Assembly (NCBI GenBank): GCA_030145205.1
Contig: JAQYVZ010000028.1
Coordinates: forward strand, 1-38,985
Length of the DNA: 38,985 nt
Direction: 5' to 3'
From: Desulfuromonadales bacterium
GTDB lineage: Bacteria; Desulfobacterota; Desulfuromonadia; Desulfuromonadales; BM103
The position numbers were made by a program, and so were the translations under genes. Shown here in pieces: positions 5,260 to 30,340 of this stretch; position 1 is the stretch's first letter; every line of letters begins with the position of its first letter. A model generated the notes under the pieces. That model searched no databases, was not told the origin of the DNA, and worked only from the letters and a program-made list of their open reading frames with translations.

Positions 5260-6693
5260 ATGTCGCAGCTATACCTGCTGGATGGATCCAGTTACATCTA
5301 CCGCGCCTATTACGGGATCAAGGACCTTGCAACCGCAGGCGGCCTGCCGACCAATGCCGTCTTCGGTTTCACAAAGATGCTCATGAACCTCCTTCAGGAG
5401 AACCGCCCCGAGTACCTGGCGGTTGTATTCGACCGCCCCAGGGAAGAAACGTTCCGCAGACAAATCTATCCTGAGTATAAGGCGAACCGGGAGGCGATGC
5501 CTGAGGATTTGGCTCTTCAGATTCCCTATATCAAGAGGGTCTTGCAGGCACTCAACATTCCGGCCCTGGAAGCCCCCGGTTTCGAAGCCGACGATGTTAT
5601 TGCCACGCTTGCCCGCCGCCATGCCGCTGAGGGAATTCAGGTGACAGTCGTCACCGGCGACAAGGACCTGATGCAGATCGTCGACGACAGAATTCATCTA
5701 CTGGACACCATGAAAGAGAAGCGGTCCGGACCTCAGGACGTTCTTGACCGCTTCGGTGTGCCGGCGGAACGGGTGCCGGATATCCTGGGGCTGGCTGGCG
5801 ACACCGCGGACAACATCCCGGGAGTGCCCGGGATCGGCGAGAAAACGGCAGCCACGCTGGTCCAAAGGTTTGGTTCTCTGGAAGACGTTCTCAAGTGGAA
5901 GACCCTGGTCAATGGCAAACAGCGCAAGAAGAATCTGCACGTTCACGCAGACCAGGCACGGCTCTCGAAAACCCTGGCAACCGTCCGCTATGACGTCGCC
6001 CTGGAGGTTCCCCTTACAGATCTTGAGCGACAGACACCGAACCTCGCTGACCTGATGCCACTGCTGCGCGAACTGGAATTTGAAGGCTTGCAGGTGGCCT
6101 TCACCCCGCCAGCACCGGGTGTGGTCGAGCTCTACAGTGATGGCTCGGGAGGGGCCTCGGGACACGGAGGATACGGAGTGGTCCTGCGTTATGGGGAACA
6201 TGAGAGGGAGTTGAGCGGTTTTGAGCCTGTGGCCACATCGCAGCGCATGGAACTGCTGGCGGCGATCAAGGGGTTGGACGCCCTGCACCAACCCAGTACA
6301 GTGAGCGTATTTAGCGACTCACAGTACCTTGTGCGAGGGATGAACGAGTGGCTTCACGGCTGGATCCGCAACGGTCGACTGGAAGAGCAGGACGCGCTCG
6401 CCAACCAGGACCTTTGGAAACAACTTGCGGTCCTGTCCGACAAACATAAAGTCACCTGGGGATGGGTGCGCGGACATGCAGGGCACCCCTTCAATGAGCG
6501 CTGCGACAAACTGGCAAAGCGGGCGGCGGAGGAAGGTCTGCAAGCCGCAGCTGCCGCAAAGCAACCAGCGCCAGTCGAGCCGGCAGAGAAACTCCCGCCT
6601 GAAGCTGTCAGCCCGGCCCAGCCGAAAACACTCCCGATCCGGGAGGATTCGGAATTTGAGTCCGAAGAAGATGGTCAGCTTCGCTTATACTAA
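5260..6693 (+). CDS. Fusion of Pol I-type 5'-3' exonuclease (flap endonuclease) with RNase HI
   Basis: A 477-residue protein with two nuclease domains. Residues 1 to about 280 match the 5'-3' exonuclease domain of DNA polymerase I. They carry the metal ligands D8, D58, E109, D111, D112, D134 and D136 (motifs F-E-A-D-D and T-G-D-K-D), plus D181/D184 and the helix-3-turn-helix G-V-P-G-I-G-E-K-T-A. Residues about 288-426 are a complete type I RNase H: D294 (Y-S-D-G-S), E331 (R-M-E-L-L), D353 (F-S-D-S-Q), H406 (W-V-R-G-H-A-G-H) and D416. A Pro/Ala/Glu-rich tail follows. There is no polymerase domain. Both activities known from the separate families remove RNA primers from Okazaki fragments or R-loops, so the fusion probably acts on RNA-DNA junctions. 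AGGA precedes the ATG at 5260. A GNAT gene follows 21 bp downstream. Confidence 0.9.
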   Translation: MSQLYLLDGSSYIYRAYYGIKDLATAGGLPTNAVFGFTKMLMNLLQENRPEYLAVVFDRPREETFRRQIYPEYKANREAMPEDLALQIPYIKRVLQALNIPALEAPGFEADDVIATLARRHAAEGIQVTVVTGDKDLMQIVDDRIHLLDTMKEKRSGPQDVLDRFGVPAERVPDILGLAGDTADNIPGVPGIGEKTAATLVQRFGSLEDVLKWKTLVNGKQRKKNLHVHADQARLSKTLATVRYDVALEVPLTDLERQTPNLADLMPLLRELEFEGLQVAFTPPAPGVVELYSDGSGGASGHGGYGVVLRYGEHERELSGFEPVATSQRMELLAAIKGLDALHQPSTVSVFSDSQYLVRGMNEWLHGWIRNGRLEEQDALANQDLWKQLAVLSDKHKVTWGWVRGHAGHPFNERCDKLAKRAAEEGLQAAAAAKQPAPVEPAEKLPPEAVSPAQPKTLPIREDSEFESEEDGQLRLY

Positions 6694-7249: not shown

Positions 7250-7732
7250 ATGAGCACCTGTCCCTGCGGCAGCGCCAACGACTATGCAGCTTGCTGCGAA
7301 CCGATCATTGCTGGCAAAAAGCAGGCTGAGACTGCGGAGCAGCTGATGCGGGCGCGCTATACAGCCCATGTCAAAGTCGAGATTGATTTCCTCTACGACA
7401 GTACCCACCCGGACCATCGCGAAGGCTACGACCACAAGGGGACCCGTAGCTGGGCCGAACAATCCGAATGGTATGGCCTTGAAATTCTCGGCACCACGCA
7501 GGGTGGCCCCAAAGATAAGCAAGGAGAAGTGGAGTTCCTTGCCCGTTTCCGCGACAAAGAGGGCCTGCGCAGTCATCATGAGTGCGGCAAGTTTGAGCGC
7601 AAGGGGAAGCGTTGGCTGTTTACCGAAGGCAGCATGGTCAAACCGAGGCCGGCGAGCAGCACCAAGGTTGGCCGCAACGACCCCTGTCCCTGCGGCAGTG
7701 GCGCCAAGTACAAAAAGTGCTGCGGCAAATAA
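7250..7732 (+). CDS. YchJ-like (UPF0225) protein with two SEC-C zinc motifs
   Basis: A 160-residue protein starting at 7250, with AAGGAG 8 bases upstream. The N-terminus (C-P-C-G-S...A-A-C-C, residues 4-16) and the extreme C-terminus ([15 protein letters not shown]) are SEC-C zinc-binding motifs like that at the end of SecA. Between them is the NTF2-like YchJ middle domain (L-M-R-A-R-Y-T-A-H). The biochemical role of YchJ proteins is not established. Zinc binding is inferred from the four cysteines in each motif. The next gene on the same strand starts 120 bp downstream, with a possible promoter between them. Confidence 0.88.
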
Positions 7733-7768
7733 CCGACTTTCCCGGTGGCGTTATTTAGCAGCGTGGAC

Positions 7769-7796
7769 TTGACAGTGGGCTTGCCAATGATACCCA
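7769..7796 (+). promoter_or_regulatory. Possible sigma-70 promoter for the selenium locus
   Basis: A perfect TTGACA (7769-7774) lies 16 bases before TACCCA (7791-7796), about 56 bases upstream of the peroxiredoxin start. The -10 box is poor, so confidence is low. Confidence 0.3.
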
Positions 7797-7851
7797 TTAA
7801 GTAACCCCAGCATCTCACTTGTCATTCCACACGCCGCACCGGGAGGACGAC

Positions 7852-8493
7852 ATGCTGCAAGAGAAACTCGATGCGATGAAAGCAGCTTCGGCGGAGATAG
7901 TGCCGCCGGAGACGCTGGCCATCATGCAGAAGGCCAAGGAGACGCTGGCGGCTTCGGGGATTCTCGACCGGGCCATCAAGGTCGGCGACACTCTGCCCGA
8001 CTTCAGCCTTGCTGACGCTCAAGGTCGACAGTTTGGTCTGACTGAGCTACGCCGCATGGGCCCAGTCTTCATCAGTATCTACCGGGGAGTCTGGTGACCT
8101 TACTGCAACGCAGAGCTGGAAGCTCTGCAGGAAATTTTGCCCGAGATTGAGAAAACCGGCGCCCGCCTGATTGCCATCTCGCCGATGCTGGCCAAGTATG
8201 CCCCGCAGCTGGTGAATAAACTGAACCTGCAGTTCCCTGTCCTGAGTGATCCGGGCAGCAAAGTCCTAAAACAACTCGGCGTTCTGTACACCCTTCCCGA
8301 CGAGATGATCGAAATCTACAAGAGCTTCAGCATCGACCTGGAGCGGTTCAACGGGGAAGACAGCTGGCAGCTGCCGCTGCCGGGGCGAATCATTATTGAC
8401 CGACAGGGGGTGGTTCGCAATGTTGAGCTGAGTACCGACCATACGGAACGACCTGAGCCTGCTGAGGCGGTCGCGTTTTTGAAAACCCTGTAA
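7852..8493 (+). CDS. Peroxiredoxin-like selenoprotein (AhpC/TSA family, UxxC active site)
   Basis: A 213-residue AhpC/TSA-family protein read through an in-frame TGA at 8095-8097 (residue 82). The flanks are G-V-W-U-P-Y-C-N, where the Cys homologues have G-V-W-C-P-Y-C-N. Conservation continues on both sides: P-D-F-S-L-A-D-A-Q-G-R before the TGA, and I-A-I-S-P and P-G-R-I-I-I-D-R-Q-G-V-V-R after it. The TGA is therefore selenocysteine rather than a stop. Sec takes the first (attacking) position of the redox pair. A perfect hairpin follows at 8110-8128. The start at 7852 has GGGAGG 5 bases upstream; a TTG at 7819 in the same frame lacks this. It is the first gene of the selenium locus and probably reduces peroxides or disulfides in the cytoplasm. 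Confidence 0.9.
8110..8128 (+). promoter_or_regulatory. SECIS hairpin of the peroxiredoxin-like selenoprotein
   Basis: A perfect 8-bp stem (GCAGAGCT at 8110-8117, AGCTCTGC at 8121-8128) with the loop GGA. The loop starts 21 bases after the TGA. Bacterial SECIS elements lie within the coding region about 16-37 bases after the UGA, with a small loop starting in G, so both position and loop fit SelB recognition. Confidence 0.8.
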
Positions 8494-8502
8494 CAGATCG
8501 AC

Positions 8503-8535
8503 CCAAGGGGCTATCTACTCGACGAATCCCCTTGG
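8503..8535 (+). repeat. Inverted repeat between the two selenoprotein genes
   Basis: A perfect 8-bp inverted repeat (CCAAGGGG at 8503-8510, CCCCTTGG at 8528-8535) with a 17-base loop, ten bases after the peroxiredoxin stop. A short T tract occurs only about 20 bases later, so it is more likely an mRNA-stabilising or partial termination hairpin than a strong terminator. Confidence 0.4.
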
Positions 8536-8662
8536 ACAAATCCGCATCCTGCCGTCTTTTTATTGTCTTGAAGCACACTTTTCGATACACTACGAAGCGC
8601 TGTACCATCTTAATCCCTACTGTCAGCTCCACGCTGGGCAGTCCGGGATTTTCTGTCAGGAC

Positions 8663-8944
8663 ATGACGACCATGCTGCCTCCGAAGCAACATACCGCCTA
8701 CTGCAATTTCTACGATGCCGTACGCGACCAGGAGCTCCTGGATGAACGCACCGTAGCCATCGTGGGGCTGACGGCGGCCATCTCCCGGGAGTGCACGCCA
8801 TGAGTCGAACACTACCTTGGCGTGGCCAGGGCACAGGGCATCAGCGAAGACGAGATTGGCGCCATTCAGGGCATCGCCATGGCGGTGGCTGCCGGCAAGA
8901 TCAATGTGATGATGCGCGAGCTCTCCCCCAGAGAAACCGACTGA
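8663..8944 (+). CDS. AhpD-like selenoprotein (CxxU active site)
   Basis: A 93-residue protein with a TGA at 8801-8803 (residue 47) in E-C-T-P-U-V-E-H. This is the redox motif of the AhpD / carboxymuconolactone decarboxylase fold with the second Cys replaced by Sec. The flanks fit the family: E-R-T-V-A-I-V-G-L-T-A-A-I-S-R before, and Y-L-G-V-A-R-A-Q-G-I-S-E-D-E-I and A-M-A-V-A-A-G-K-I-N after. A 7-bp hairpin with loop GTG follows the TGA. The start is either ATG 8663 or ATG 8672; the AGGA just before 8663 is better spaced for 8672. AhpD proteins reduce AhpC-type peroxidases, so this is a plausible partner for the upstream selenoprotein. selA follows 45 bp downstream. A standard ORF scan misses this gene. 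Confidence 0.85.
8815..8831 (+). promoter_or_regulatory. SECIS hairpin of the AhpD-like selenoprotein
   Basis: A 7-bp stem (CCTTGGC at 8815-8821, GCCAGGG at 8825-8831, one G-T wobble) with loop GTG, starting 19 bases after the TGA. Spacing and loop fit a bacterial SECIS. The SECIS of selD in this window has the same GTG loop. Confidence 0.75.
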
Positions 8945-8989
8945 CAGCTTTCCGCACACTCCCCACTGTACTGTTAAAGAGGATTTCCC

Positions 8990-10393
8990 ATGTCTGATCG
9001 TCAGACGTTGCTACGCCAGATTCCGTCGATTGATCGCCTGCTCGCGGCCGCTCCATTGCAGTCCCTGACCGGAGACTGCCCGCACGTGCTGCTACGCGAG
9101 GCGGCCCAGCAGGCCGTGGCTGAACTGCGTCAGGCTCTGCTTGACGCCTCTAGCGACACACCGGACGTGGCACCGGAGACCGTCGCGGCTCGTGCCGCCG
9201 AACTGGCAAAAATCGCCGTGCGTCCATCTCTGCGGCGAGTGATCAACATCACCGGCACCCTGCTACACACCAACCTCGGCCGCGCTCCCCTGTGCGCCAC
9301 GGCCCTGCAGGCCGTCAACGACGTCTCGAGCGGCTACTCCAATCTGGAGTATGACCTGGACGCCGGTAAGCGCGGCAAGCGTTTCACTCATGTCGAGCAG
9401 CTGATCTGCCGCCTGACCGGCGCAGAAGCCGCCCATGTGGTTAACAATAACGCCGGGGCGGTCCTGCTGGCCCTGTCGGCTCTGGCCGGCGGCAAAAAAG
9501 CCCTGGTGTCACGCGGGGAACTGATTGAGATTGGCGGCTCGTTCCGCATCCCAGACATCATGGCGGCCGGCGGCACCCACATGGTTGAGGTCGGCACCAC
9601 CAACAAGACCCACCTGGAAGACTATCGCCGCGCCATCGATGCCGACACCAGTCTGATCCTAAAAGTCCACACCAGCAACTACCGGGTTCTCGGCTTTACG
9701 GAAGCGGTGACCGGGACCGAGCTGGCGGAACTCGCTCATAAGCATGGGCTGCCGGTTCTGGAAGACCTCGGCAGCGGTCTGCTGCTCGACCTGACCCCAT
9801 TTGGTCTACCGCGTGAACCAACGGTGCGGGAAGTTTTGGCCAACAACATTGACCTGGTCACTTTCAGCGGCGACAAGCTGCTCGGCGGGCCCCAGGCCGG
9901 CATTATTGTCGGCCGCAAGGAGATTGTCGATCAATTGCGCAAACACCCGATGGCACGCGCCCTGCGGCTCGACAAGATGACCCTGGCTGCCCTTGAAGCA
10001 ACCCTGCAGCTCTACCTCGATCCGGACAAGGCCTTCCGTGAGCTGCCAACCCTGCGCCTGCTGGCGACCTCGGCGGACACTCTGAAGGAACGCTGTGAAC
10101 AATTGCTGCCGCGCTTCACAGCAACTCTCGGCGACCTCGCCGATATCACCATGACCAAAGCCACGGCGCCGGTCGGCGGCGGCGCCCTGCCCCTGGCGGA
10201 GATGTCCGGCTGGGTGCTGGTCTGTCAACCTCGCAGCCTGTCACTGAACCGGCTAGCCGGGAACCTGCGACAAGCCGAGGTGCCGGTTATTGGACGCATC
10301 CAGGACGATCAGCTTTACATCGACCCGCGCACCCTCGCTATTGAAGACGAAGAGCTGTTACTGCAAACCCTGAAGGACGCTTTGACCCCATGA
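8990..10393 (+). CDS. selA: L-seryl-tRNA(Sec) selenium transferase
   Basis: A 467-residue SelA. It is a PLP enzyme that converts seryl-tRNA(Sec) to selenocysteinyl-tRNA(Sec) using selenophosphate. The PLP lysine is K296 in S-G-D-K-L-L-G-G-P-Q-A-G. The N-terminal domain contains I-N-I-T-G-T-L-L-H-T-N-L-G-R-A-P-L, a SelA signature. Length is normal for bacterial SelA. A GAGGA lies about 7 bases before the ATG. Its stop overlaps the selB start by four bases (ATGA), indicating translational coupling. It sits between two selenoprotein genes and selB. Confidence 0.97.
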   Translation: MSDRQTLLRQIPSIDRLLAAAPLQSLTGDCPHVLLREAAQQAVAELRQALLDASSDTPDVAPETVAARAAELAKIAVRPSLRRVINITGTLLHTNLGRAPLCATALQAVNDVSSGYSNLEYDLDAGKRGKRFTHVEQLICRLTGAEAAHVVNNNAGAVLLALSALAGGKKALVSRGELIEIGGSFRIPDIMAAGGTHMVEVGTTNKTHLEDYRRAIDADTSLILKVHTSNYRVLGFTEAVTGTELAELAHKHGLPVLEDLGSGLLLDLTPFGLPREPTVREVLANNIDLVTFSGDKLLGGPQAGIIVGRKEIVDQLRKHPMARALRLDKMTLAALEATLQLYLDPDKAFRELPTLRLLATSADTLKERCEQLLPRFTATLGDLADITMTKATAPVGGGALPLAEMSGWVLVCQPRSLSLNRLAGNLRQAEVPVIGRIQDDQLYIDPRTLAIEDEELLLQTLKDALTP

Positions 10394-12309
10394 GTGACGC
10401 AACCCGCTTCCATATTATTGGCACCGCCGGCCACGTCGACCACGGCAAGACCGTTCTGATCAACACCCTGACCGGCGTCAACACCGACCGTCTCAAAGAA
10501 GAGCAGGCCCGTGGCATCTCCATCGACCTCGGCTTCGCCCCTCTGACTCTGGCGGACGGCTCCGTCGCCGGTGTGATCGATGTCCCCGGCCATGAGCGCT
10601 TCATCCATAACATGCTTGCCGGCATCGGTGGCATTGACCTGGTCCTGTTGGTGGTTGATGTCAACGAAGGCGTCATGCCGCAGACCAAGGAACATTTGCA
10701 GATTCTGGAACTGCTCAAGATCCCGCGGGGCATCCTGGTGCTGACCAAGTGCGACATGGCGGAAGAGGATTGGATCGACATCGTTGAGGAGGAGGTCCGC
10801 GAAACGCTGGAAGGGACCTTTATGGAGAAGGCGCCCTGCTGCCGGGTTGCGGCGTTGGAGGGCACCGGCATGCCGGAGCTGAAAACCCTGATTCAGGAGA
10901 TCCTGCAGAAACTGCCGCCGCGCGACGAAGATGGCCCCGCCCGATTGCCGATCGATCGACACTTTTCGGTCAGCGGTTTCGGTACGGTGATCACCGGCAC
11001 CCTGCTGTCGGGACAGATCAAGATCGGCGACCCGGTCGAGGTCCTGCCGCCGGGAGAAGTGGTGCGTGTTCGGGAAATCCAGGTGCATGGTCAGAAAGCA
11101 GAAGTCGCCCGCGCCGGACAGCGGGTGGCGCTCAACCTGGCCGGCCTGGAACGCGCCGACCTGCAGCGTGGCGCGATTGTCGGCACCGCCGGTTTCTACA
11201 GTATGGCCGAGCGGATCGACGCCCGCTTCACTCTGCTGAAGGAAGCACCGCGCGCCGTCAAGTTCCGCGACCCGGTCCATCTTCACCTCGGTACCGCCAA
11301 AGTGACGGCCCGCGTGGTCCTGCTCGATCGCGAGGAGTTGGAGCCTGGAGAAAGCGCCCTGGTCCAGTTTCACCTGGACGCACCTCTGGTGGCACACCGT
11401 CAGGACCGCTTTATCGTGCGCTCCTATTCGCCGATGACCACGATCGGCGGCGGCCAGATTATCGACCCGGCGCCGAACAAACATAAACGGTTCAGGCCGG
11501 CTGTCATGCAGGCATTGGCGGAGCTTGAATCGGGAGAGACCTCTTTTCTGGTCCAGAAACTCGCCGAGCTCGGCTGTGTCAAGCTCAAAGAGCTGGAGCA
11601 AGCTTCCGGCCTTGGCCGCGAGCGGGTCAGCAAGCATCTGGATACCCTGAAACAGGGCGGCCAGGTGGCCAACCTCGGCGACCAATGGGTCACGGCGGAG
11701 ACTGCCTGCTCCTGGGAACGTCTGTTGACCGATGCGGCGGACAGCTTTCACCGCGACAACGCGCTGCTGCCGGGCATACCGCATGCCACCCTGAAGGCCG
11801 TTCTGCCGACCAAGGTGGCACCGAAAACCTTCGAACAGCTGCTTGGCAAGATGGTCTCGGATGGCCATCTGGAACAGCGTCAGGAATGGGTGACCCGTCC
11901 CGGATTCAAACCATCACCGACGCCTCAGCAAGAGCAATGGCTGAAGGCCCTGGACAAGGTCTACCGCGACGCCGGTGTCCAGGCTAAAGGCCGCGTCGAC
12001 ATGCTGGCTGCAGCCGGGACTCCGGCTGAGCAGGCAGAGCGCTTGTTCTCCTACCTGTTTGCCAACAGCATTCTGGTTCGCCTCAACGATGACTCCTACC
12101 TGCATGCGGAAACCTACGCCAAAGCGTTGCAGATTTTACAGCAACACTTTGCCGGGCAGGAAACCTTGACTCTGGCGGAGTTCCGCGACAAGATCGACAG
12201 CGGCCGCAAGCTGACCCAGGCACTGCTGGAGCATTTTGACGGCCTGAAATACACCATGCGTAAAGGCGACTCACGAGTGGCCTGGCAAATGCCGAAAGAC
12301 AATAACTAA
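10390..12309 (+). CDS. selB: Selenocysteine-specific elongation factor
   Basis: A 639-residue SelB, the translation factor that carries Sec-tRNA(Sec) to UGA codons marked by a SECIS hairpin. G motifs are clear: G-H-V-D-H-G-K-T (14-21), D-V-P-G-H (64-68) and T-K-C-D (119-122). EF-Tu-like domains 2 and 3 follow, including F-S-V-S-G-F-G-T-V-I-T-G-T. The C-terminal part (from about 400) comprises the winged-helix repeats that bind SECIS RNA; K-L-K-E-L-E-Q-A-S-G-L-G-R-E-R-V is one such helix-turn-helix. Full length. It overlaps selA by four bases and is followed by selD after 27 bp. Confidence 0.97.
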   Translation: MSDATRFHIIGTAGHVDHGKTVLINTLTGVNTDRLKEEQARGISIDLGFAPLTLADGSVAGVIDVPGHERFIHNMLAGIGGIDLVLLVVDVNEGVMPQTKEHLQILELLKIPRGILVLTKCDMAEEDWIDIVEEEVRETLEGTFMEKAPCCRVAALEGTGMPELKTLIQEILQKLPPRDEDGPARLPIDRHFSVSGFGTVITGTLLSGQIKIGDPVEVLPPGEVVRVREIQVHGQKAEVARAGQRVALNLAGLERADLQRGAIVGTAGFYSMAERIDARFTLLKEAPRAVKFRDPVHLHLGTAKVTARVVLLDREELEPGESALVQFHLDAPLVAHRQDRFIVRSYSPMTTIGGGQIIDPAPNKHKRFRPAVMQALAELESGETSFLVQKLAELGCVKLKELEQASGLGRERVSKHLDTLKQGGQVANLGDQWVTAETACSWERLLTDAADSFHRDNALLPGIPHATLKAVLPTKVAPKTFEQLLGKMVSDGHLEQRQEWVTRPGFKPSPTPQQEQWLKALDKVYRDAGVQAKGRVDMLAAAGTPAEQAERLFSYLFANSILVRLNDDSYLHAETYAKALQILQQHFAGQETLTLAEFRDKIDSGRKLTQALLEHFDGLKYTMRKGDSRVAWQMPKDNN

Positions 12310-12336
12310 TAGCCAGTAACTGGTTGGGAGAATCTT

Positions 12337-13371
12337 ATGAGTATCAAACTGACGCATTTGTCGAAAACCAGCGGTTGAGCGGCCAAGCTGGCCCCCGGGC
12401 CTCTGGCGCAGGTGCTGCGCCAACTACCGCAGGTTGACGACCCGAATCTTCTGACCGCCGCGATCCCTTTCGCCGATGCTGGCGTGTATCGGCTTTCGGA
12501 TGAGTGCGCGTTGGTGCAGTCAGTCGATTTTTTCACACCGATTGTTGACGACCCGGCCACTTTCGGCCAGATCGCTGCAGCCAATGCACTCTCCGACATC
12601 TACGCCATGGGCGGCAAACCTCTCACCGCGATGAACCTGATCGGCTTCCCGGAGTGCCTCGACCGCCAGCTGCTTGTGGAGATTCTCAAGGCAGGTGCGG
12701 CCAAGGTGCACGAAGCGGGGGCAGTGATCGTCGGCGGGCATACGGTTGAAGACGACGAACCGAAATACGGCTTGGCGGTGACCGGGCTGGTCGATCCGGC
12801 TAAGTTGATCAGCACGGTCGGGGCGCAGCCTGGCGACGTCCTGATCCTCACCAAACCGCTCGGTACCGGCATTCTGGCCACGGCCCTGAAAGGGGAAGTG
12901 ATTACAGAAACCGACATGGCCGATGCCATCCTCAGCATGTCGACCCTCAACAAGGCGGCAGCTGAAGCAATGGCCTGCGTCGACACCCATGCCTGCACTG
13001 ACATCACCGGCTTCGGCCTGCTCGGCCATGTCGTGGAGCTGGCAGAAGCCAGCCAGATGGGTATTGTTCTGGAGAGTCGATCTCTACCGATTTTTCCGGA
13101 GGTTCTCGATATGGCGGCCATCGGCCTGGTGCCAGTCGGCAGCTACCGCAACCGCGAACATTACCTGCCGAGTGTGGTCAATCGTGAAGAAGTCGCAGCA
13201 GAAGTTATTGACGTGCTGGCCGACCCGCAGACCTCAGGCGGCCTACTGATCGCCGTGCCGGCTGCGCAGCAGGAAGCGCTGCTGGCAGAACTGGCCAAGC
13301 GTCAAACAGATGGATTTGTTGTGGGTGAGGTTGTCGGGGAGCATCCCGGTCAAGTGACCGTACGCGTTTGA
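12337..13371 (+). CDS. selD: Selenide, water dikinase, itself a selenoprotein
   Basis: A 344-residue SelD that makes selenophosphate from selenide and ATP. The frame contains TGA at 12376-12378 (residue 14) in K-T-S-G-U-A-A-K-L, where other SelD proteins have Cys in the catalytic G-C-x-x-K loop. Without readthrough the gene would appear to begin inside the sequence at 12412. The true ATG at 12337 has GGGAG 6 bases upstream. ATP-binding features follow: Q-S-V-D-F-F-T-P-I-V-D-D-P, A-N-A-L-S-D-I-Y-A-M-G-G and T-D-I-T-G-F-G-L-L-G-H. A strong hairpin lies at 12404-12422. As a selenoprotein, this SelD needs Sec to make more Sec, a known feedback arrangement. It is the last gene of the locus. Confidence 0.95.
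12404..12422 (+). promoter_or_regulatory. SECIS hairpin of selD
   Basis: A perfect 8-bp stem (TGGCGCAG at 12404-12411, CTGCGCCA at 12415-12422) with loop GTG, starting 34 bases after the TGA. That is within the 16-37 base window for bacterial SECIS elements. A weaker 5-bp hairpin at 12381-12393 lies too close to the TGA. Confidence 0.75.
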
Positions 13372-13414
13372 TCGAGGGAATCCCTCTGGTTGCAGAATGG
13401 GTCAGGCGTGCTTG

Positions 13415-15559
13415 TCAATCTGCTGTTTCAAGCTGAAAGTGCTTGATCGCATCCTGCAGGGCCTTCGCCTGCTGTGCCAGGGTTTTGACATTCTCATCCA
13501 GGGTGCCGGTCGACGTCAGGTTAACACCCGTTGACTCCTCAATCCCCTGCATCGAAGAAACAATCCGCTGGGTTCCACCAACCTGTTCTTCACAGGCCCG
13601 CTGAATCCGCATGATCATCTCGCTGATGCTTTCAGCAGCACCGGAGATCGACTGACCGGCGTTGCTCTGCTCGCGGGTCGATTTTTTGACATGCTCGGTC
13701 ATGTCGCGCATTCTCTCGGCAGCTTGCAAAATCTGGTCACTCGCCTTGCTCTGTTCCGTGGTCGCGCCCTGAATCTGTTCCACCATTTCGGCAACGCCCT
13801 GCATCGCTTCGCCGATCATCTGACTTTCACGGGTCTGGTTTAAGGTCGCAGCCGAAATTTGCTCCACCTGCAGCACCATACCTTGCACACCATCGACAAT
13901 CTTCGTCAAAGCCTGCCCGGAGCGAACCGAAAGGGTTTTCCCTTCTGCGACGCTCTTCTCTGTCAGTTCAATGGCGTTCACAGCTTTCCCGGTTTCCTCC
14001 TGAACGCCATGGATGACTTCAGCAATCGCCTTGGTCGACTCAGCAGTCCGGTTAGCGAGCTCCCTGATCTCTTCCGCCACAACCGCAAAACCGCGACCGC
14101 GATCACCCGCCTGGGCGGCAATAATGGCTGCGTTCAAGGCGAGCAGGTTGGTTTGTTCCGTGACCTCATCAATCACCTTTAAAATATCGCCGATATTCTG
14201 CGCTTTGCCAGACAAGCTCTGAATGGCCCGGAACGCAACCTGGGATGCTTCATTAATCTGTTCGATCCCCTGGATGGTTGCTTCAACTGCCTCCTGGCCC
14301 GTGCTGGCATCCTCCTGCACACCCTCGGCACTCGCAGTTGCGCCTTGGGCATTCTGCTGAACCTGATGAATGGAAGCATCCATTTCGGAAACCGACGCGA
14401 GGGTTTGAGCAGACGTCTCCTGCAGGTTATCAACTCCGCCGACCACCTGCTTCATGGAAGACGCCATCTCGCTGATCGAGCTGCTGACTTCATCCACGTT
14501 GCTCGCCAGGTTTTCAGCATTCAGAGCAAGTTCCTCGGTGCTGGCAGCCATCTCCAGAATCGACGAGGTCACATCAGCTGAAGAGTGGTTCAGGTTGTCG
14601 ACCTGGGAACCGACGCCGTCGACCGACAGCTTGATTTCAGTGACCACCCCGGAAGTCTTCTCCACTTCCTCCACCTGAACTTGGGCGGAAGTCGTGATCT
14701 GCCGGGACACGCCACTGAGTGCCCCGGAGATTTTCGCCAGCTCATCTGAAGAGTTGCTGGCGTTCTGCACCACAGCCCGGACTTGATCCACCATGTCGTT
14801 CATGGTGTCGGCCAGTTCGCCGATCTCGTCTTGCGCGTTGACATCAAGACTTTCAACCAGGTCGAGCCGTCCATCAGCGAGCAGTCGTGCATTCGACTGG
14901 AGCCCCCTGAGCGGTTTGATTATCAGCTTGCGAGCGAATACTTCGACCAGAACCACGGAGACAAAAAAGACAGCGCACAGCAGAGCCAGCACGCGGTTCA
15001 TATTGCTGTCCGCGACCTGACGCACCCCGTCGACCTGCTGCTCAACTCGCTGCCCGGCAGTTTCAGTCAACTCTTCGAAAGCGTCCAGAAGACGCCCCTG
15101 CTGCTGGCCAACAGCCTGAACCTCGGCCTGAATTTCGACGAAATCCGTACCGTTGGCCAGCATTGAGTAGTATTTGGACGCCGCTTTGCTGTAGTTCAGA
15201 TAATTGTTCTGGAGAAGAAGGAAATCATCCTCCCCCATCACACCGACGCGTACCACCGCCGGTTCAATCTGCGCCAACAAGTCGGAGACTTCTTCTGCAA
15301 GGGCCTCCCCGCTGTGAATGGATTCCATATCCCCCAGCAGGAAGGCGTCTTCAAAATACTTGGTCTGCTTTTTGAGCGTATTAACTACTTCCTGACTGGT
15401 CAGGGCCAAGGGGATGCCATTATCCCGCAGAAGCGACAGGTTGTCCGTCAACTCAATATTGGACAAGTAGGTTGAGGCCGTTGCCACGACAAAACCGACA
15501 AACGCCACCCCGGCACACAACCAGACCTTAAATCGCACGCTTCTGAAGAATTTCATCAC
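13415..15559 (-). CDS. Methyl-accepting chemotaxis protein, 4HB-like sensor
   Basis: A 714-residue chemoreceptor. The first membrane helix is at about 10-33 and the second at about 189-209. Between them is a helical periplasmic domain of about 155 residues, compatible with a four-helix-bundle sensor. A HAMP domain follows (about 210-263), then a long coiled-coil signalling domain. The conserved hairpin tip reads [22 protein letters not shown] (near 470), with Ile where many receptors have Glu. There is no C-terminal CheR/CheB tether pentapeptide; the end is Q-L-E-T-A-D. It is the third gene of an operon with a porin and a small solute-binding protein, 11 bp after the latter, under a c-di-GMP riboswitch. 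Confidence 0.93.
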
Positions 15560-16010: not shown

Positions 16011-17336
16011 TTAAAAGTTATAGGACACTTTGAATGCGACGTAATCCCAGTCTTCTTCAAGGTCCGCCGGATCATTCAGGACGGTCATGAAGAGGGCTGT
16101 GCCGTTCACATCGTGGTATTCCGCTTTCAGGGTCCAGTTCGCATTCACGTCGTAGCGCAACCCGATACCAAAATCTTTTCGCCAACTGAAGAAGTCCTGG
16201 CGTGACAGTGATGTCGCGGCAAAATCTTTGCCATCCTTGTCGTCCTTGTCGCTGTAGAACACATCGTAAAGCAGTGACAGGGTGAACTTCTCCATGAAGG
16301 TGTAGGAGGCCATCAGGTAGTACGCCTGGGAGGTTGCATCCTGGCCGGTATAATCGGCAAACGTCTGTTTACGAGCGGTCTCAGCATATTCAGCCGCTAG
16401 CACCAGGTCGCCGAGGGCATACTCAACCGAGCCGACCCAAGTTGACTCGTTAGTCAGGGTTCCCGACAGATCGGAGCCGGCCAGATACAATGCGGGGTCA
16501 CTATAATCGGCAGGATAAATTGAAATGGCAGATTTAAAGTCGAGGTCATTTTGTACACGCAGGTAAGACAAACCAAAACGCAACCCCTCAACAGACGTAT
16601 TCAGGACCGCTGAGCCACCGGCAATATAATCGTTGTCGATCTCCAGGTTCTGTGCATACAAGTTGTTCATGACAAACCCCTGTTTTTGCTGGGGTGTTGA
16701 GCCAGGAGCCACGGGCACCAGACTTGGGCCAACGTTGCTTCGGAGGGTAAAGGTCGCGTTATTGGTTAAGGCATCGTTCAGGATCGCGTCATCCGGAAAA
16801 GCTATGGTGCCGTAGAAACCATGGTAATCCAGATCGCCGAGGGCACCGAGCGACAGGTTGCCATAAAGCCCGCCTCCCGTGTAGGCCACCAGCAGGTCAC
16901 GCTTGGTCTCGTCGTAGATACTCTGCGGCAGGAACACCATCGGCCGCAACATATCGGTATCGCGGCCTTCGTTATAGAGGCCAAGAGGCAGCTTGACCTT
17001 GCCGAGTCTCACCCCGATCTGGTCATTAAAACGATAATCGGCATAGGCCCAGTCAAGACGAATTTGGTCATTACCGACATCGCCCAGATCGCGGGAGAGC
17101 AACTGCAACCCGAACCGCAATTTATCGGTTACCTGGCTTTGCGCCGTCACCCCGATCTCGCGAAACTGTGTCGATCCTTCTTCAGAATCTTCCGTCAAGA
17201 AATTATTCTCGCTGCTATCCAGGTACCCCTGGGCAACAAACCCGTTGATATGGAAATTTCCAACTTCGAACGCCAGCAGCGTCGATGGAAAAACCATAAC
17301 CAACACCATCAATGACACAACAACTTTCCAGTTCAT
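16011..17336 (-). CDS. Outer-membrane porin-like beta-barrel protein
   Basis: A 441-residue exported protein. The start at 17336 is preceded by GGAAGGAGG; an in-frame upstream start at 17393 would lie before any ribosome site. The signal peptide is V-V-V-S-L-M-V-L-V-M-V-F-P-S-T-L-L-A. The rest is rich in alternating aromatic/polar strands and ends in F-K-V-S-Y-N-F, with the terminal Phe typical of barrel assembly. N-I-H-G-F/N-G-F-V-A-Q-G-Y and R-L-G-K-V-K-L-P-L-G-L-Y-N-E are patterns of the phosphate-selective-porin-like superfamily. The substrate is unknown. It is the first gene after the c-di-GMP riboswitch and its terminator. Confidence 0.85.
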   Translation of the reverse strand: MNWKVVVSLMVLVMVFPSTLLAFEVGNFHINGFVAQGYLDSSENNFLTEDSEEGSTQFREIGVTAQSQVTDKLRFGLQLLSRDLGDVGNDQIRLDWAYADYRFNDQIGVRLGKVKLPLGLYNEGRDTDMLRPMVFLPQSIYDETKRDLLVAYTGGGLYGNLSLGALGDLDYHGFYGTIAFPDDAILNDALTNNATFTLRSNVGPSLVPVAPGSTPQQKQGFVMNNLYAQNLEIDNDYIAGGSAVLNTSVEGLRFGLSYLRVQNDLDFKSAISIYPADYSDPALYLAGSDLSGTLTNESTWVGSVEYALGDLVLAAEYAETARKQTFADYTGQDATSQAYYLMASYTFMEKFTLSLLYDVFYSDKDDKDGKDFAATSLSRQDFFSWRKDFGIGLRYDVNANWTLKAEYHDVNGTALFMTVLNDPADLEEDWDYVAFKVSYNF

Positions 17337-17401
17337 GCATCCTCCTTCCCTGTTCAGGCTGTTTTCAGAATGCGTTAAACACCCGAAAGGCACCTTCCCG
17401 T

Positions 17402-17436: not shown

Positions 17437-17580
17437 CTTGCAATAATGCGGTCGGCAGTCCCACTGTCGGCAACCCGGCTGTCCGTGCCAATGTCGGTAA
17501 GACACTGACCGAGGACCCGTGGCTTTGCGTCACCAAGTTTCCCTGGCTTTGCCCTTTCTGGTGTAGCGCAACAAATCAAT
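17437..17580 (-). promoter_or_regulatory. c-di-GMP-I (GEMM-I) riboswitch aptamer
   Basis: Read on the minus strand, the leader contains AGGGCAAAGCCA, a GGGAAAC tetraloop hairpin, GGTGACGCAAAGCCACGGG, and later GGACAGCCGGGTTGCCGAC. This order and these conserved blocks (GGCAAA, GNRA loop, GACGCAAAGCC, AGCCGGGTTGCC) are the signature of the GEMM-I c-di-GMP riboswitch. The base I align with Vc2 G20 is G, which favours c-di-GMP over the cGAMP-binding GEMM-Ib variant. The core spans about 17460-17570; outer limits are approximate. It precedes a terminator and the porin / binding protein / chemoreceptor operon. Confidence 0.9.
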
Positions 17581-26982: not shown

Positions 26983-28845
26983 TTACCACCCAACCATGAC
27001 CCCGGCCTGGCCGGCACAAGAATCCGAAGCAAATGCAGAGCTCACCCCGGCCGTCAACAGCACCGTATCCGACAGGTAATGGAACACCCCGGCGGCCACG
27101 GCATTTTCACTGCTGTAATGGCCGATCCCCAGGGAAAGCTGGGTGTTGCCGCGGGACCGAGCATTCGGGACCAAGGCGGAAAAAGCCGTCGCCAGAGCAC
27201 CGACCCGGTCGAGGCGGTCATCAAGGCTATTCAGACGGCTTCCCATCTGGTCAAGACTGCCCAGAAATGTGGCCTCAATGGTCTGCAGTTGTTGCAGGTT
27301 GACGACATCGGTGTCATTGACAGCTGCGGCGACATGACTGACCCGCCGCTCGTTGTCGGCCGATCCGACCGAAACGGTCTGCGCCTCATCTGCCACCGCG
27401 TTCTGACCGATGGCCACACTTCCCGCAGTTCCCTGTTGAACCTCGGCATTCTGTCCCAGGGCGACACCACCTGCTGCATCAACAGCCACGTGAGCATCGG
27501 CACCAACTGCCACACTGTTCTCCGATTCGACCAAGCTGTCCGCGCCGACCGCGACACTGCCGTCGGCCGTAACCGTTGCCTGGTAGCCGATGGCCGTATC
27601 ACGCGTCCGGGCCGAAGCACCTGAGCCGAACGCCGTGCTTCCTTCGCCGGTGGCTGAAGCACGAACATACTCGTCTCCCCCAGTTACAGCGAGACTTGCT
27701 GACAGTTCGGCAAGGTCCGTGTCGCCGATCCGGGCGTTGATGTCAGCGACCTCTCCGGTGTTGGTGTCGATCGCCGCTGCCTGGACCTGAAGCTCGCTTT
27801 CAACGCTGTCCATGCGCCCGCCCAAAGTGTCGATCTCCGTCTCGGCGGTGTCCATGCGACCCTGCAGGTCGACAATCTCCGCCCCGGGGACATTACCAAG
27901 AGCCTGAACCTCTCCCAGGAGATCGGTGACGGCATTGTACTGGCTGACCGTCGCGACGTCATGAGCGTCGATGCCGTCGGCCACATTCACCAGTCGACGC
28001 GGAGCGGCGACAGTGCTGACCTCGACTGTTTCGTCCAGGATCAGAAGGGAATTGTAACCGGGGTCAACGCGAAAGCTGAGCCACTCCGGCCGGGGGACCT
28101 CAACCTCCACAGTTTCGGAACAAAGATAATCCATTGTCCCCATAAAAGGGTCGGTGACTGTGACATTCCCTGTCCCCGCCGGAACCAACTCACAGTATGA
28201 CATGACCTGAGAATCGCTCAACTCGGCATACGGCAAGGTCAACGTTTCCAATGGGAGACCAGTGTTGCCGGTAACAGGCACCGCCACCATGTCCGGGCAG
28301 TATCGGTCCAGCAAGTTGTTGGCGTCGGAGGCATTTCCGGTGCCTTCCTCGACCTGCTCACAAAAGGTGCCGATCTGATTCGGTGTCAGTTCGGCGAAAG
28401 GCATCAGTTGCGTCTCGAATGAGGAAAAGTCAAAAGTTTGATCATAAGTGTATTCAAAGAGGAGCGGAGAAATTGAAATCAATTCCGCCTGAACAGGCAG
28501 GAACTCATCCTTGATCGGGATGTAGTTTGTGGTATCGCTTATGCCAAAGAAGCTCTCTCCCCCGTTGGCATATTCGTTGGCAATCAGCCACCAGTCCTGG
28601 CTCGGGACACCCGCGTCACTGCTGGTGTCGTCGAAATAAATCCGCAAGTTATTCTCCTTGAGACGCAGCGTATCTTCAGCGAAGACCTCACCCGAGGCAC
28701 AGTCCACACCGACACATGCGTTCCCATCGACAATCAGGCTGGTGTTATAGACTTGGTCAGCCCACAACGAACCCGCGCACAAGAAAACCAGCCCCAGCGC
28801 AGCGCCAACTAAACTAATGATGTTCACAGCTCTTATTTTAAACAC
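26983..28845 (-). CDS. Trimeric-autotransporter-like (YadA-type) surface protein, copy 1
   Basis: A 620-residue surface protein starting at GTG 28845, with AGGAG 6 bases upstream. A signal peptide (I-I-S-L-V-G-A-A-L-G-L-V-F-L-C-A-G) precedes an N-terminal domain with S-L-I-V-D-G-N-A-C-V-G-V-D-C, shared with copy 2. Residues about 115-250 are an insertion absent from copy 2 that contains an imperfect internal repeat. A coiled-coil stalk follows, then a head region of collagen-like YadA repeats (S-T-A-F-G-S-G-A-S-A, S-V-A-V-G-A-D). The C-terminal anchor (S-L-G-I-G-H-Y-S...) ends G-V-M-V-G-W. Such proteins trimerise and are self-displayed in the outer membrane for adhesion. It lies 79 bp after copy 2 and likely shares its transcript. 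Confidence 0.85.
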   Translation of the reverse strand: MFKIRAVNIISLVGAALGLVFLCAGSLWADQVYNTSLIVDGNACVGVDCASGEVFAEDTLRLKENNLRIYFDDTSSDAGVPSQDWWLIANEYANGGESFFGISDTTNYIPIKDEFLPVQAELISISPLLFEYTYDQTFDFSSFETQLMPFAELTPNQIGTFCEQVEEGTGNASDANNLLDRYCPDMVAVPVTGNTGLPLETLTLPYAELSDSQVMSYCELVPAGTGNVTVTDPFMGTMDYLCSETVEVEVPRPEWLSFRVDPGYNSLLILDETVEVSTVAAPRRLVNVADGIDAHDVATVSQYNAVTDLLGEVQALGNVPGAEIVDLQGRMDTAETEIDTLGGRMDSVESELQVQAAAIDTNTGEVADINARIGDTDLAELSASLAVTGGDEYVRASATGEGSTAFGSGASARTRDTAIGYQATVTADGSVAVGADSLVESENSVAVGADAHVAVDAAGGVALGQNAEVQQGTAGSVAIGQNAVADEAQTVSVGSADNERRVSHVAAAVNDTDVVNLQQLQTIEATFLGSLDQMGSRLNSLDDRLDRVGALATAFSALVPNARSRGNTQLSLGIGHYSSENAVAAGVFHYLSDTVLLTAGVSSAFASDSCAGQAGVMVGW

Positions 28846-28924: not shown

Positions 28925-30340
28925 TCACCAACCGAAGGTGACCCCCGCCCGACTGGCGGTGCTGTTCGACTCAAACGCGGAGCTCACTCCCATATTCACA
29001 AGAACATTATCGGAGACATGATGAAAAACCCCGGCAGCCAGCGCATTGGCGCCGCTGTAGTTACCAACCCCGAGGGAAAGCTGGGTATTGCCGGCAGCAC
29101 GAGCATTCGGCACCAGGGCAGAGAAGGCTGAGGTCAAGGCACCAACGTTGTCGAGACGGTCCTCGAGACGACCAACCTTTCCATTCAAACGGGAGACGTC
29201 CTCCTGGAGCAGCGCCTCCGCTGCTTGCAGTTGACCCAGGTTGACAGCATCGGTTTCGTTGATTGCAGCGTCGACATTGGTCACCCGCCGCTCGTTGCCC
29301 GTCGAACCGACAGAGATAGTATTCGCCTCACTGGCCACAGAATCCTGGCCGATAGCAACGCTTCCCGCCGCGCCCTGCAGAACCTGGGCGTTTTGGCCGA
29401 GAGCAACACCGCCCGCAGCATCGCTGGCTACATGGGAATCAGCCCCAACAGCCACGCTATTCTCCGATTCAACCAGGCTATCCGCACCGACCGCTACACT
29501 GCCATCAGCAGTAACCGTCGCCATAAAACCGACAGCGGTGTCGCGGGTACGAGCAGAGGCGCCAGACCCGAGTGCGGTGCTGCCGACTCCGGACGCTTCG
29601 GCGGGGCCACTCTCACCGTCGCCAGTCGCGGAATAATCGAAAGAGAAAGAGGAAATGTCAAAATCGCCCAGGCGGACGTTGATATCGGCAATATCCTGCG
29701 AATTTTGAGCAATGGCCGCCTCATGATCCAGCAGGGTTCCTTCAGCCGTATCCATGCGACCATCCAGGTCAACAATGGCCACTTCGCCGGCAGTCATACG
29801 GGTTTCCAGATCAAAAAGCGCTGCACCCGGGTTGGTTCCAAGCGAGAGCATTTCGTCAAGAGCGTCCTTGATCGGTGTCAGCTGTCCGATGGTGGCTGCA
29901 TCCTGCGGGTCAACACCATCAGCCACGTTCACCAGGCGGCGCAGAGCATCGGCGGTGCTGACCTCGACAGTCTCATCAAGTATCAAAAAAGAGTTGTCAC
30001 CAGCATTAACACGAAAATCGGGCGTAGCCCCCACGCCATCGCTGATGGCGAAATAGCTATCGCCGCCATCAAACGAGTCGTTGGTGAAGATCGACCAATC
30101 GGTCGTCGGGAAACTGGCAGTGTTACTGGTATCCGTGAAAGAGATCTGAAGATCTTCCCCTTTCAGGCGAATCGTATCAAAGCCAAACGGTTCAGGGTTG
30201 ACGCAATCAACGCCGATACAGACGCTGCCATCGACGATCAGGTCGTCAAGGATCTGTTCATCCGCCAGCGTGTTCGTACTGCTAAACAACAGACCTACCC
30301 ACAATACGGTAAAGATTTTCTTGCCCCACGTGTCGTGCAT
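28925..30340 (-). CDS. Trimeric-autotransporter-like (YadA-type) surface protein, copy 2
   Basis: A 471-residue paralogue of the next gene on the strand. The start at 30340 has GGGAGG 5 bases upstream. Order: signal peptide, N-terminal domain with D-L-I-V-D-G-S-V-C-I-G-V-D-C and F-D-T-I-R-L-K, a linker L-L-I-L-D-E-T-V-E-V-S type stretch (here F-L-I-L-D-E-T-V), coiled coil (about 150-235), YadA head repeats (S-T-A-L-G-S-G-A-S-A through S-V-A-I-G-Q-D), neck, and a four-strand anchor ending G-V-T-F-G-W. The two head regions are closely similar, which points to a tandem duplication. A promoter region with two palindromes lies upstream. Confidence 0.85.
   Translation of the reverse strand: MHDTWGKKIFTVLWVGLLFSSTNTLADEQILDDLIVDGSVCIGVDCVNPEPFGFDTIRLKGEDLQISFTDTSNTASFPTTDWSIFTNDSFDGGDSYFAISDGVGATPDFRVNAGDNSFLILDETVEVSTADALRRLVNVADGVDPQDAATIGQLTPIKDALDEMLSLGTNPGAALFDLETRMTAGEVAIVDLDGRMDTAEGTLLDHEAAIAQNSQDIADINVRLGDFDISSFSFDYSATGDGESGPAEASGVGSTALGSGASARTRDTAVGFMATVTADGSVAVGADSLVESENSVAVGADSHVASDAAGGVALGQNAQVLQGAAGSVAIGQDSVASEANTISVGSTGNERRVTNVDAAINETDAVNLGQLQAAEALLQEDVSRLNGKVGRLEDRLDNVGALTSAFSALVPNARAAGNTQLSLGVGNYSGANALAAGVFHHVSDNVLVNMGVSSAFESNSTASRAGVTFGW

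Follow-up and report, generated by a model that had tools for sequence, protein, structure and literature searches.

The window, the whole 38,985-nt stretch of Desulfuromonadales DNA analysed here, encodes the selenocysteine (Sec) synthase SelA and the elongation factor SelB among genes that are themselves interrupted by in-frame UGA codons (Table 1). It raises the question of how such a locus matches the supply of SelA and SelB to selenium, which to our knowledge is known mainly from E. coli. The explanation that we favour as a whole, with slightly better than even confidence, is a selenocysteine operon in which the SECIS region of a small ahpD-like gene doubles as a cis-regulatory leader for selA-selB.

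Table 1 Features of the selenium locus, in positions of the window.
Feature	Positions	Strand	Remarks
prx-like selenoprotein gene (AhpC/TSA, UPYC motif), 213 aa	7852..8493	+	Sec = TGA 8095-8097; PF00578
SECIS hairpin of prx, 8 bp, loop GGA 8118-8120	8110..8128	+	
AhpD/CMD-like small selenoprotein gene, 93 aa, motif CTPU	8663..8944	+	Sec = TGA 8801-8803; PF02627
SD-like GGGAG, 8 nt 5' of leader AUG	8787..8791	+	
Putative leader ORF, 65 codons, alternative frame; stop at +8 of selA	8800..8997	+	
SECIS hairpin of ahpD, 7 bp, loop GUG 8822-8824	8815..8831	+	covariation, 74 sequences
selA, selenocysteine synthase	8990..10393	+	TIGR00474, 601.7 bits (cut-off 267.9)
selB, Sec-specific elongation factor	10390..12309	+	TIGR00475, 402 bits (cut-off 242.25); PF09106, PF09107
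selD, Sec at codon 14	12337..13371	+	TIGR00476, 374.8 bits (cut-off 125); Sec = TGA 12376-12378
SECIS hairpin of selD, 8 bp, loop GUG 12412-12414	12404..12422	+	conservation

SelA, SelB and SelD all scored above their NCBIfam cut-offs, which upholds the first-pass annotation in placing SelA and SelB among the selenoprotein genes. Both C-terminal winged-helix SECIS-binding domains of SelB were likewise above cut-off, the selB start overlaps the selA stop (ATGA), and the genome encodes the full Sec-decoding set of SelA, SelB, SelD and a tRNA-Sec with a UCA anticodon. The Prx-like protein matched PF00578 (89.6 bits, cut-off 26) and fell below the cut-off of a SelL-related model (40.4 versus 120 bits). 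The AhpD-like protein belongs to the CMD family (PF02627, 37.4 bits, cut-off 23), and CMD structures were retrieved by profile. It was below cut-off for the GSU3128 family (NF041047; 22.4 versus 110 bits, with nine relatives at 21-39 bits) and for ArsM_AhpD_UU (45.7 versus 510 bits); since none of the four NCBIfam models that matched it reached its own cut-off, annotation will probably overlook this small gene or truncate it at the UGA. The active site of Mycobacterium-type AhpD is CxxC-x3-H. This site was absent here, all 20 sequences of alignment A1 reading CxPU-x3-Y, and the three solved CMD relatives for which an alignment was shown have His at the Tyr position. The region 7600-13600 contained four terminator-like sites (5.2 expected) and, on the minus strand only, three promoter-like sites (1.5 expected); none was convincing. 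A terminator-like 5-bp stem lies at 8634-8646 (+), in the prx-ahpD gap.

Sequence homology continued past each of the three UGA codons in homologues of the Prx-like protein, the AhpD-like protein and SelD. To compare the Sec sites, we set aside duplicates, matches that did not span the site and sites whose flanks were too short. For prx, 28 distinct sites remained: the 16 closest (at least 39% identity, window included) all had TGA, one at 37% identity (L055) had TGC, and 11 more distant thioredoxin-like sites comprised one TGA, eight Cys codons and two ACC. The 87 distinct ahpD sites held 74 TGA, 10 Cys codons (one of them, L141, in a poor alignment) and one each of TTA, CGA and TAA. TGA was found at 31/31 homologous selD sites, and the SelD proteins of two further genomes (G042 and G055) had Cys. 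UGA or Cys thus occupied nearly all homologous sites, in line with the earlier reading of Cys replaced by Sec. A hairpin was still present after the three odd ahpD codons (TAA in L139, CGA in L135 and TTA in L158). Recoded Sec codons were considered for these sites and rejected; because L139 and L135 both come from genomes with a UCA-anticodon tRNA-Sec, and G135 has no tRNA-Sec above cut-off, we attribute them to mutation or to errors in the sequence.

A hairpin with a three-base, G-starting loop lies 3' of each UGA; the loop begins 21 (prx), 19 (ahpD) or 34 nt (selD) after the codon, as the first-pass annotation had described. Across 74 sequences, 98.6% of the cells of the ahpD hairpin were paired, versus 93.0% in shuffles, and two-sided changes occurred in 37 cells versus 7.6, a value that none of 500 shuffles matched; four pairs showed such changes, a number reached by 62/500 shuffles. 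By contrast, Cys-type AhpD homologues lacked the hairpin, pairing at the chance level of 41.3% (nine sequences in alignment A6, which holds nine of the ten Cys-codon rows, without L141). The selD hairpin was 100% paired, with two covarying pairs (2/500 shuffles), in a comparison that covered the TGA forms. For the prx hairpin, which was 99.2% paired, covariation is silent because six of its eight pairs are invariant. Alignment A4 was built without L056 and the non-TGA rows. Folding energies of the UGA flanks did not exceed chance expectation (z -0.3 to -0.7) and were not used as evidence. Taken together, these comparisons leave very little doubt that all three are selenoprotein genes with SECIS hairpins, at which Sec insertion is predicted. 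This selenoprotein, SECIS and sel-gene part of the locus is of already known kinds.

Could the locus then tune itself through SelD, as the first-pass annotation proposed? With Sec at codon 14 and a conserved SECIS, SelD would tie selenophosphate supply to existing Sec insertion, a positive feedback. However, Sec in SelD is common in Desulfuromonadales and the norm in the relatives searched, with or without linkage to ahpD: 53 of 59 SelD matches had one TGA. The feedback is therefore not specific to this locus; the idea is not supported as a distinctive claim, and we consider it improbable as the explanation. The combination of AUG, Shine-Dalgarno (SD) sequence and hairpin before selA is a better-supported candidate for tuning.

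What is conserved as a unit is ahpD(U)-selA-selB-selD(U), with prx as a local neighbour. An ahpD gene lay directly 5' of selA in 17/58 genomes, the window's own included, and among the 14 named selA-linked loci, 11 also had selB and selD, while three ended before them. The gap between prx and ahpD measures 169 nt, and in none of the 16 other genomes from which a close prx homologue was fetched was ahpD or selA closer to it than about 1.5 kb. Thus, the 'tight five-gene run' previously described is true of this window only. The selA-linked ahpD copies formed one clade (98/94) in an AhpD tree of 81 rows and 87 columns in which the bootstrap had not settled and G037 was absent. A SECIS-type hairpin preceded selA in 19 genomes, including G002, which has no ahpD; when the regions before 40 further selA genes of the order were searched with the strict ahpD-SECIS motif, only G037 matched.

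It is conceivable that the AhpD(U) protein, rather than its RNA, explains the position before selA, for example as a selenol reductant or a selenide handler for Sec synthesis. The protein is well conserved beyond the UGA, and its Sec form is retained across the linked clade except in G135. However, several phyla have unlinked relatives of the protein, the loci fetched for these contained neither selA nor selB, and five clade members have selA but no ahpD match. Such a role would also leave unexplained the CCA codon, SD and open frame described below, and we regard it as unlikely.

The leader AUG and the ahpD Sec codon overlap (AUGA, 8800-8803), and the leader frame crosses the SECIS hairpin. 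This frame was open in 16/17 ahpD(U)-selA genomes, the exception having a frameshifted ahpD, and ended at +8 of selA in all 16 linked genomes with an unbroken ahpD(U). The counts of SD, openness and four-fold sites refer to these 16, with G037, G135 and G002 set apart; as all belong to one clade, the counts are not independent. Over 42 codons, the leader frame was open in 16/16 linked versus 15/57 unlinked ahpD(U) genes, whereas the other alternative frame was open in none of the 16. When synonymous codons were resampled, the ahpD part of the frame stayed open with a chance of 0.03-0.72, depending on the genome. The proline codon that creates the leader AUG was CCA in 18/18 linked rows (G037 and G135 included) versus 4/57 unlinked rows with TGA (Fisher 7.7e-14, a value that ignores kinship among the linked genomes); CCA makes up 17% of Pro codons in the selA genes of the linked genomes. 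An SD-like site preceded the AUG in 14/16 linked genomes, G005 and G051 being the exceptions, versus 1/57 unlinked genes.

In the ahpD-selA gap of 17 genomes (without G037), the leader frame had no stops in 229 codons, versus 17/246 and 9/229 in the other frames. With G037, which alone contributed 2/24, stops numbered 2/253 in the leader frame, 18/270 in the ahpD/selA frame and 11/253 in the third; the gap is short, each being open by itself in 43-100% of shuffles. Of the four-fold sites that lie outside the hairpin at invariant residues, only two of 12 were unchanged in the 16 genomes, and one of these is the A of the leader AUG. An alternative-frame ORF with SD and AUG across the selA start was seen in 1/55 other selA regions, G037 being among the 55. 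By eye, selA has its own SD, so coupling is unnecessary for its translation. These patterns suggest that a conserved leader ORF or element is probably under selection. In the open-licence literature covered, including passages of PMC13188914, PMC8124441, PMC3834832, PMC1794560, PMC5322559 and PMC4513850, we came across no account of an overlapping reading frame where ahpD meets selA.

Several members of the clade depart from this arrangement. G002 has no ahpD match, yet its hairpin matched 13 relatives at 15-16 of 17 bases in the same register, whereas the stretch 3' of it matched the same 13 at 19-27 of 88 positions, ungapped; the sequence is at chance identity on both sides of the kept hairpin. 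G002 also keeps the leader AUG and a GAGG SD, and its leader frame extends without a stop over 68 codons into selA (shuffle P 0.036), encoding a peptide that is unconserved outside the hairpin. No sizeable frame runs into the UGA, the one present having 15 codons and, by eye, no SD. A 30-aa UGA mini-ORF was considered as a tiny selenoprotein and is not favoured, as it has no SD by eye. G002 is represented by a single MAG, 86% complete, and its exact position, at the end of a long branch, is uncertain. In G037 the hairpin is present, the ahpD match is split over two frames and the leader stops after 11 codons. In G135 the UGA has become UUA, so that the leader AUG is lost as well, and selA is retained. 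Finally, G004, G007, G011 and G013, of the same SelA clade, had neither an ahpD match nor such a hairpin in the 700 nt before selA, which implies that the element is dispensable. In G007, a tRNA-Sec gene lies directly 5' of selA.

These observations bear on two further alternatives. The locus could be an ordinary selenium operon. Codon usage and shared descent would then account for the overlapping frame, and the G002 hairpin would be a remnant of ahpD that has yet to decay. Every part of it is of a known kind, the linked genomes form a single clade, the frame is open in some unlinked ahpD(U) genes that have no selA to serve, and, besides the four clade members without the element, two more have it broken. 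Against this stand the excess of CCA/AUG and SD-like sites in linked genomes, a leader frame free of stops throughout the non-coding gap of 17 genomes and the retention of the G002 hairpin between flanks at chance identity; we hold this account to be possible but doubtful. Alternatively, the Sec UGA of ahpD could itself be the sensor: without Sec-tRNA, ribosomes would stop at the UGA and restart at the AUG, feeding selA, and SelB binding would be irrelevant. The AUGA overlap in all 16 linked genomes with an unbroken ahpD(U), and in G002, is consistent with such termination-reinitiation. However, G002 retains AUG, SD, hairpin and leader where no sizeable frame enters the UGA, which implies that the hairpin matters even with no gene to terminate; we consider the alternative rather unlikely.

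In the operon model that we favour, Sec would be inserted into a Prx-like oxidoreductase, a small AhpD/CMD-fold thiol/selenol protein and SelD with the help of SelB, the tRNA-Sec (UCA) and a SECIS hairpin in each gene. When plentiful, SelB/Sec-tRNA would occupy the ahpD hairpin, which lies 15-31 nt 3' of the leader AUG and hence at the edge of an initiating ribosome (from the hairpin loop start to the selA AUG is 168 nt), and would also steer ahpD ribosomes through the UGA, so that leader translation and the coupled translation of selA-selB would drop. When Sec is scarce, ribosomes would start or restart at AUGA and travel to the selA start, and SelA and SelB would rise. We put feedback of SelB/Sec-tRNA on selA-selB in this direction at an even chance, the mechanism being inferred from the arrangement of the sequence. 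With the UGA shared with the leader start, the SECIS within the leader's first codons and the leader ending in selA, one hairpin may have two roles. A further reading, to which we give slightly less than even weight, is that one RNA stretch is both selenoprotein gene and regulatory leader, its hairpin serving Sec insertion and feedback, and that one lineage kept only the regulatory half after losing the protein. If so, the clade, with its dual-use SECIS and overlapping leader, would be a directly testable second system for SelA/SelB supply, and would illustrate how a selenoprotein gene can evolve into a purely regulatory leader. It supplies natural losses of the protein (G002), of UGA and AUG together (G135), of both frames (G037) and of the element (G004, G007, G011 and G013).

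The E. coli selAB genes are reportedly autoregulated through a SECIS-like element 5' of selA, as Thanbichler and Bock are said to have found in 2002. Both systems have a hairpin of the SelB-binding type 5' of selA on a selA-selB message, and by analogy the one here could repress. By contrast, this locus has its hairpin within a selenoprotein gene, as a SECIS with predicted SelB binding, and an overlapping ORF with its own AUG and SD crosses it into the selA start. SelB autoregulation in E. coli is cited in PMC8124441, which also proposes that a tRNA-Sec overlapping selB or abutting selA controls their level; the likeness lies in a placement of Sec components that may affect a neighbour's expression, and the element at ahpD-selA is a different one. 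The prx-like gene shows no notable difference from the Prx-like thiol:disulfide oxidoreductase selenoproteins that the tables of PMC1794560 list for Geobacter and its relatives, to which it is likened at the level of AhpC/TSA family, Sec at the redox motif and bacterial order. With the prokaryotic AhpD/CMD-like CxxU selenoproteins listed in PMC13188914 (PF02627, NF041047 and NF041537), the AhpD-like protein shares the CMD family, the CxxU motif and its small size; relative to those described there, it differs in having Tyr, not His, four residues past Sec and in being linked to selA in one clade.

The five-gene selenium locus proposed in the first-pass annotation is present in the window at the positions listed below. 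SelA, SelB and SelD matched their family models well over cut-offs, the prx-like product was assigned to the AhpC/TSA family and the ahpD-like product to CMD, and a tRNA-Sec with anticodon UCA was found in the window's own genome (76.8 bits). This selenium operon is a member of an already known kind. The AhpD-like protein belongs to the CMD superfamily. AhpD carries a CxxC-x3-H motif, which the window-type proteins fail, having Tyr at +4 in 20 of 20; the protein also scored below the cut-off of the GSU3128 model (22.4 versus 110 bits).

Similarity continues across the UGA in all three selenoprotein genes. TGA was found at all 16 of the closest Prx-like sites (identity at least 39%, window counted), with TGC at the Sec site of the homologue L055 and mostly Cys at 11 more distant thioredoxin-like sites. 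At 87 distinct AhpD-like sites, 74 had TGA, 10 had Cys codons (one of them, L141, a poor alignment) and the remaining three had TTA, CGA and TAA, while SelD had TGA at 31/31 homologous sites and Cys in two further SelD. The UGA positions therefore correspond to Cys in relatives, as originally claimed, and this UGA/Cys exchange was observed for all three proteins. Among SelD matches in the relatives searched, 53/59 had one TGA, four did not cover the site and two had Cys; Sec in SelD is thus general in this set, and may provide a candidate tuning of supply. According to PMC13188914, SelD makes up a very large family of selenoproteins. Three ahpD genes retained the SECIS hairpin with an altered Sec codon: UUA in L158:1597-1599 (genome G135, 87% complete, with no tRNA-Sec over cut-off), CGA in L135:8010-8012, and UAA in L139:332-334 from an NC10 bacterium whose tRNA-Sec is UCA, the last reflecting mutation, sequence error or unusual decoding.

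The hairpin loops begin 21 (prx), 19 (ahpD) and 34 (selD) nt past the UGA, within the 19-34 range given initially. Folding energy of the UGA flanks was uninformative taken alone. Across 74 UGA-type genes, 98.6% of AhpD hairpin cells were paired versus 93.0% in shuffles. Two-sided changes occurred in 4/7 pairs, a number reached by 62/500 shuffles, and in 37 cells versus 7.6 in shuffles, a total reached by 0/500. The same columns in nine Cys-type AhpD homologues were 41.3% paired, not above shuffles. The SelD hairpin was 100% paired with two covarying pairs; that of Prx was 99.2% paired and almost invariant in sequence, hence no covariation could be counted.

Gene order was conserved beyond the window. 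The ahpD gene lies directly before selA (hereafter linked) in 17/58 genomes, own included, and 11 of 14 named loci with this pair also have selB and selD, the other three ending first. Linked ahpD genes fall into a single clade (support 98/94; recovered in 99% of bootstrap trees). Unlinked relatives come from several phyla, and the 60 other named ahpD loci yielded neither selA nor selB and a single selD (L122). In the window prx lies 169 nt upstream of ahpD; none of the 16 other genomes from which a close homologue was retrieved has it within ~1.5 kb of ahpD or selA. Therefore, the conserved unit is ahpD(U)-selA-selB-selD(U), with prx a local neighbour. Just past prx, an 8-bp inverted repeat (CCAAGGGG ... 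CCCCTTGG, 17-nt loop, 8503-8535) was seen by eye, with no T-run behind. In G037, one of the relatives, the ahpD match (L280) is in two pieces in different frames with UGA and hairpin retained, reflecting decay or assembly error, and selB (L134) lies farther from selA than in other loci.

Features of the selenium locus and its putative leader
Feature	Position	Strand	Remark
prx-like gene	7852-8493	+	Sec TGA at 8095
ahpD-like gene	8663-8944	+	Sec TGA at 8801
SD-like GGGAG	eight bases before AUG 8800	+	sequence
Putative leader ORF	8800-8997	+	65 codons, through SECIS, stop 8 bases into selA
selA	8990-10393	+	
selB	10390-12309	+	
selD	12337-13371	+	Sec TGA at 12376

A putative leader ORF overlaps the ahpD Sec codon: the Pro46 codon CCA followed by UGA creates AUGA. 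Its frame is open, ending at +8 of selA, in 16/16 linked genomes with unbroken ahpD(U), and UGA-selA distances (171, 189, 192, 213) are each multiples of three. The third frame over ahpD is open in 0/16. The leader frame is also open for 42 codons in 15/57 unlinked ahpD(U) genes, and the chance of an open frame under synonymous-codon resampling was 0.03-0.72 per genome. The proline codon is CCA in 18/18 linked rows versus 4/57 unlinked (Fisher 7.7e-14, ignoring kinship), and an SD-like site precedes the AUG in 14/16 versus 1/57. Across the ahpD-selA gap, 0 stops were counted in 229 leader-frame codons from 17 genomes, versus 17/246 and 9/229 in the other frames, a count omitting G037 (2 stops in 24 codons); single gaps were open in 43-100% of shuffles (29% for G037). 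With the hairpin excluded, 2/12 four-fold sites at invariant residues showed no change, among them the A of the leader AUG. In 55 other selA regions, eight had an alternative-frame AUG ORF over the selA start, one (G004) with an SD-like site too. Because linked rows share ancestry, these figures describe a pattern, not independent trials. At the sequence level, the AUG, SD and open frame of the putative leader are conserved. A perfect 6-bp inverted repeat (GTCTGA TCG TCAGAC, 8992-9006) spans the selA start, by eye absent from most relatives; leader translation could open it.

The relative G002, in which no ahpD match was found, shares the side of a SelA-tree branch (100/99) with ahpD carriers, its own branch being long and its exact place unsure. 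Its hairpin is kept at the same place (loop 168 nt before selA), with 15-16 of 17 bases identical to each of 13 same-register relatives; across 40 further upstream regions no 17-base stretch exceeded 13 matches except in G037, where the element is present. In the stretch downstream of the hairpin, 19-27 of 88 positions match those 13 relatives ungapped, the figure among the 14 f1 ahpD carriers compared being 75%. AUGA and a GAGG site are also present in G002, where the leader frame runs for 68 codons without a stop and reaches +17 of selA in 36% GC sequence (shuffle P 0.036); the other frames have four and two stops.

The evidence base for the leader is one clade and this one genome, a MAG. 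G135 departs from the pattern (UGA to UUA, leader AUG lost), as does G037 (leader broken, stopping after 11 codons). G004, G007, G011 and G013 are without the hairpin element, and G005 and G051 have no SD-like site before the leader. By eye, selA has its own SD. In G007, which has no ahpD, a tRNA-Sec gene (L307:3012-3129) ends ~20 nt before selA, perhaps another way of linking Sec supply and selA.

Elsewhere in the window, a c-di-GMP-I riboswitch (17466-17563, minus strand; 67.3 bits, cut-off 35) lies upstream of a minus-strand gene (16011-17393) that is outer-membrane porin-like by eye. The ORF at 5260-6693 (+) encodes a fusion of a DNA polymerase I-type 5'-3' exonuclease (residues 3-278) with RNase HI (289-428), combining two primer-removal activities in a single chain. 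Adjacent minus-strand genes (26983-28845 and 28925-30340) encode proteins with YadA-like head repeats by eye, which look like trimeric autotransporter-type surface proteins.

We infer that SelB with Sec-tRNA on the hairpin would impede initiation at the leader AUG and would also draw ahpD ribosomes through the UGA, reducing leader translation. Lower leader translation would in turn lower coupled selA translation, then that of selB via the selA-selB ATGA overlap; Sec shortage would reverse this lowering of leader, selA and selB translation. Thanbichler and Bock reportedly described, in 2002, a SelB-binding SECIS-like element before selA in the E. coli selAB message. PMC8124441 cites this work for SelB autoregulation in E. 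coli. No description of an overlapping ORF at the ahpD-selA junction was found in the open-licence literature searched, and the putative leader, if real, would represent a new form of SECIS-based selAB control.
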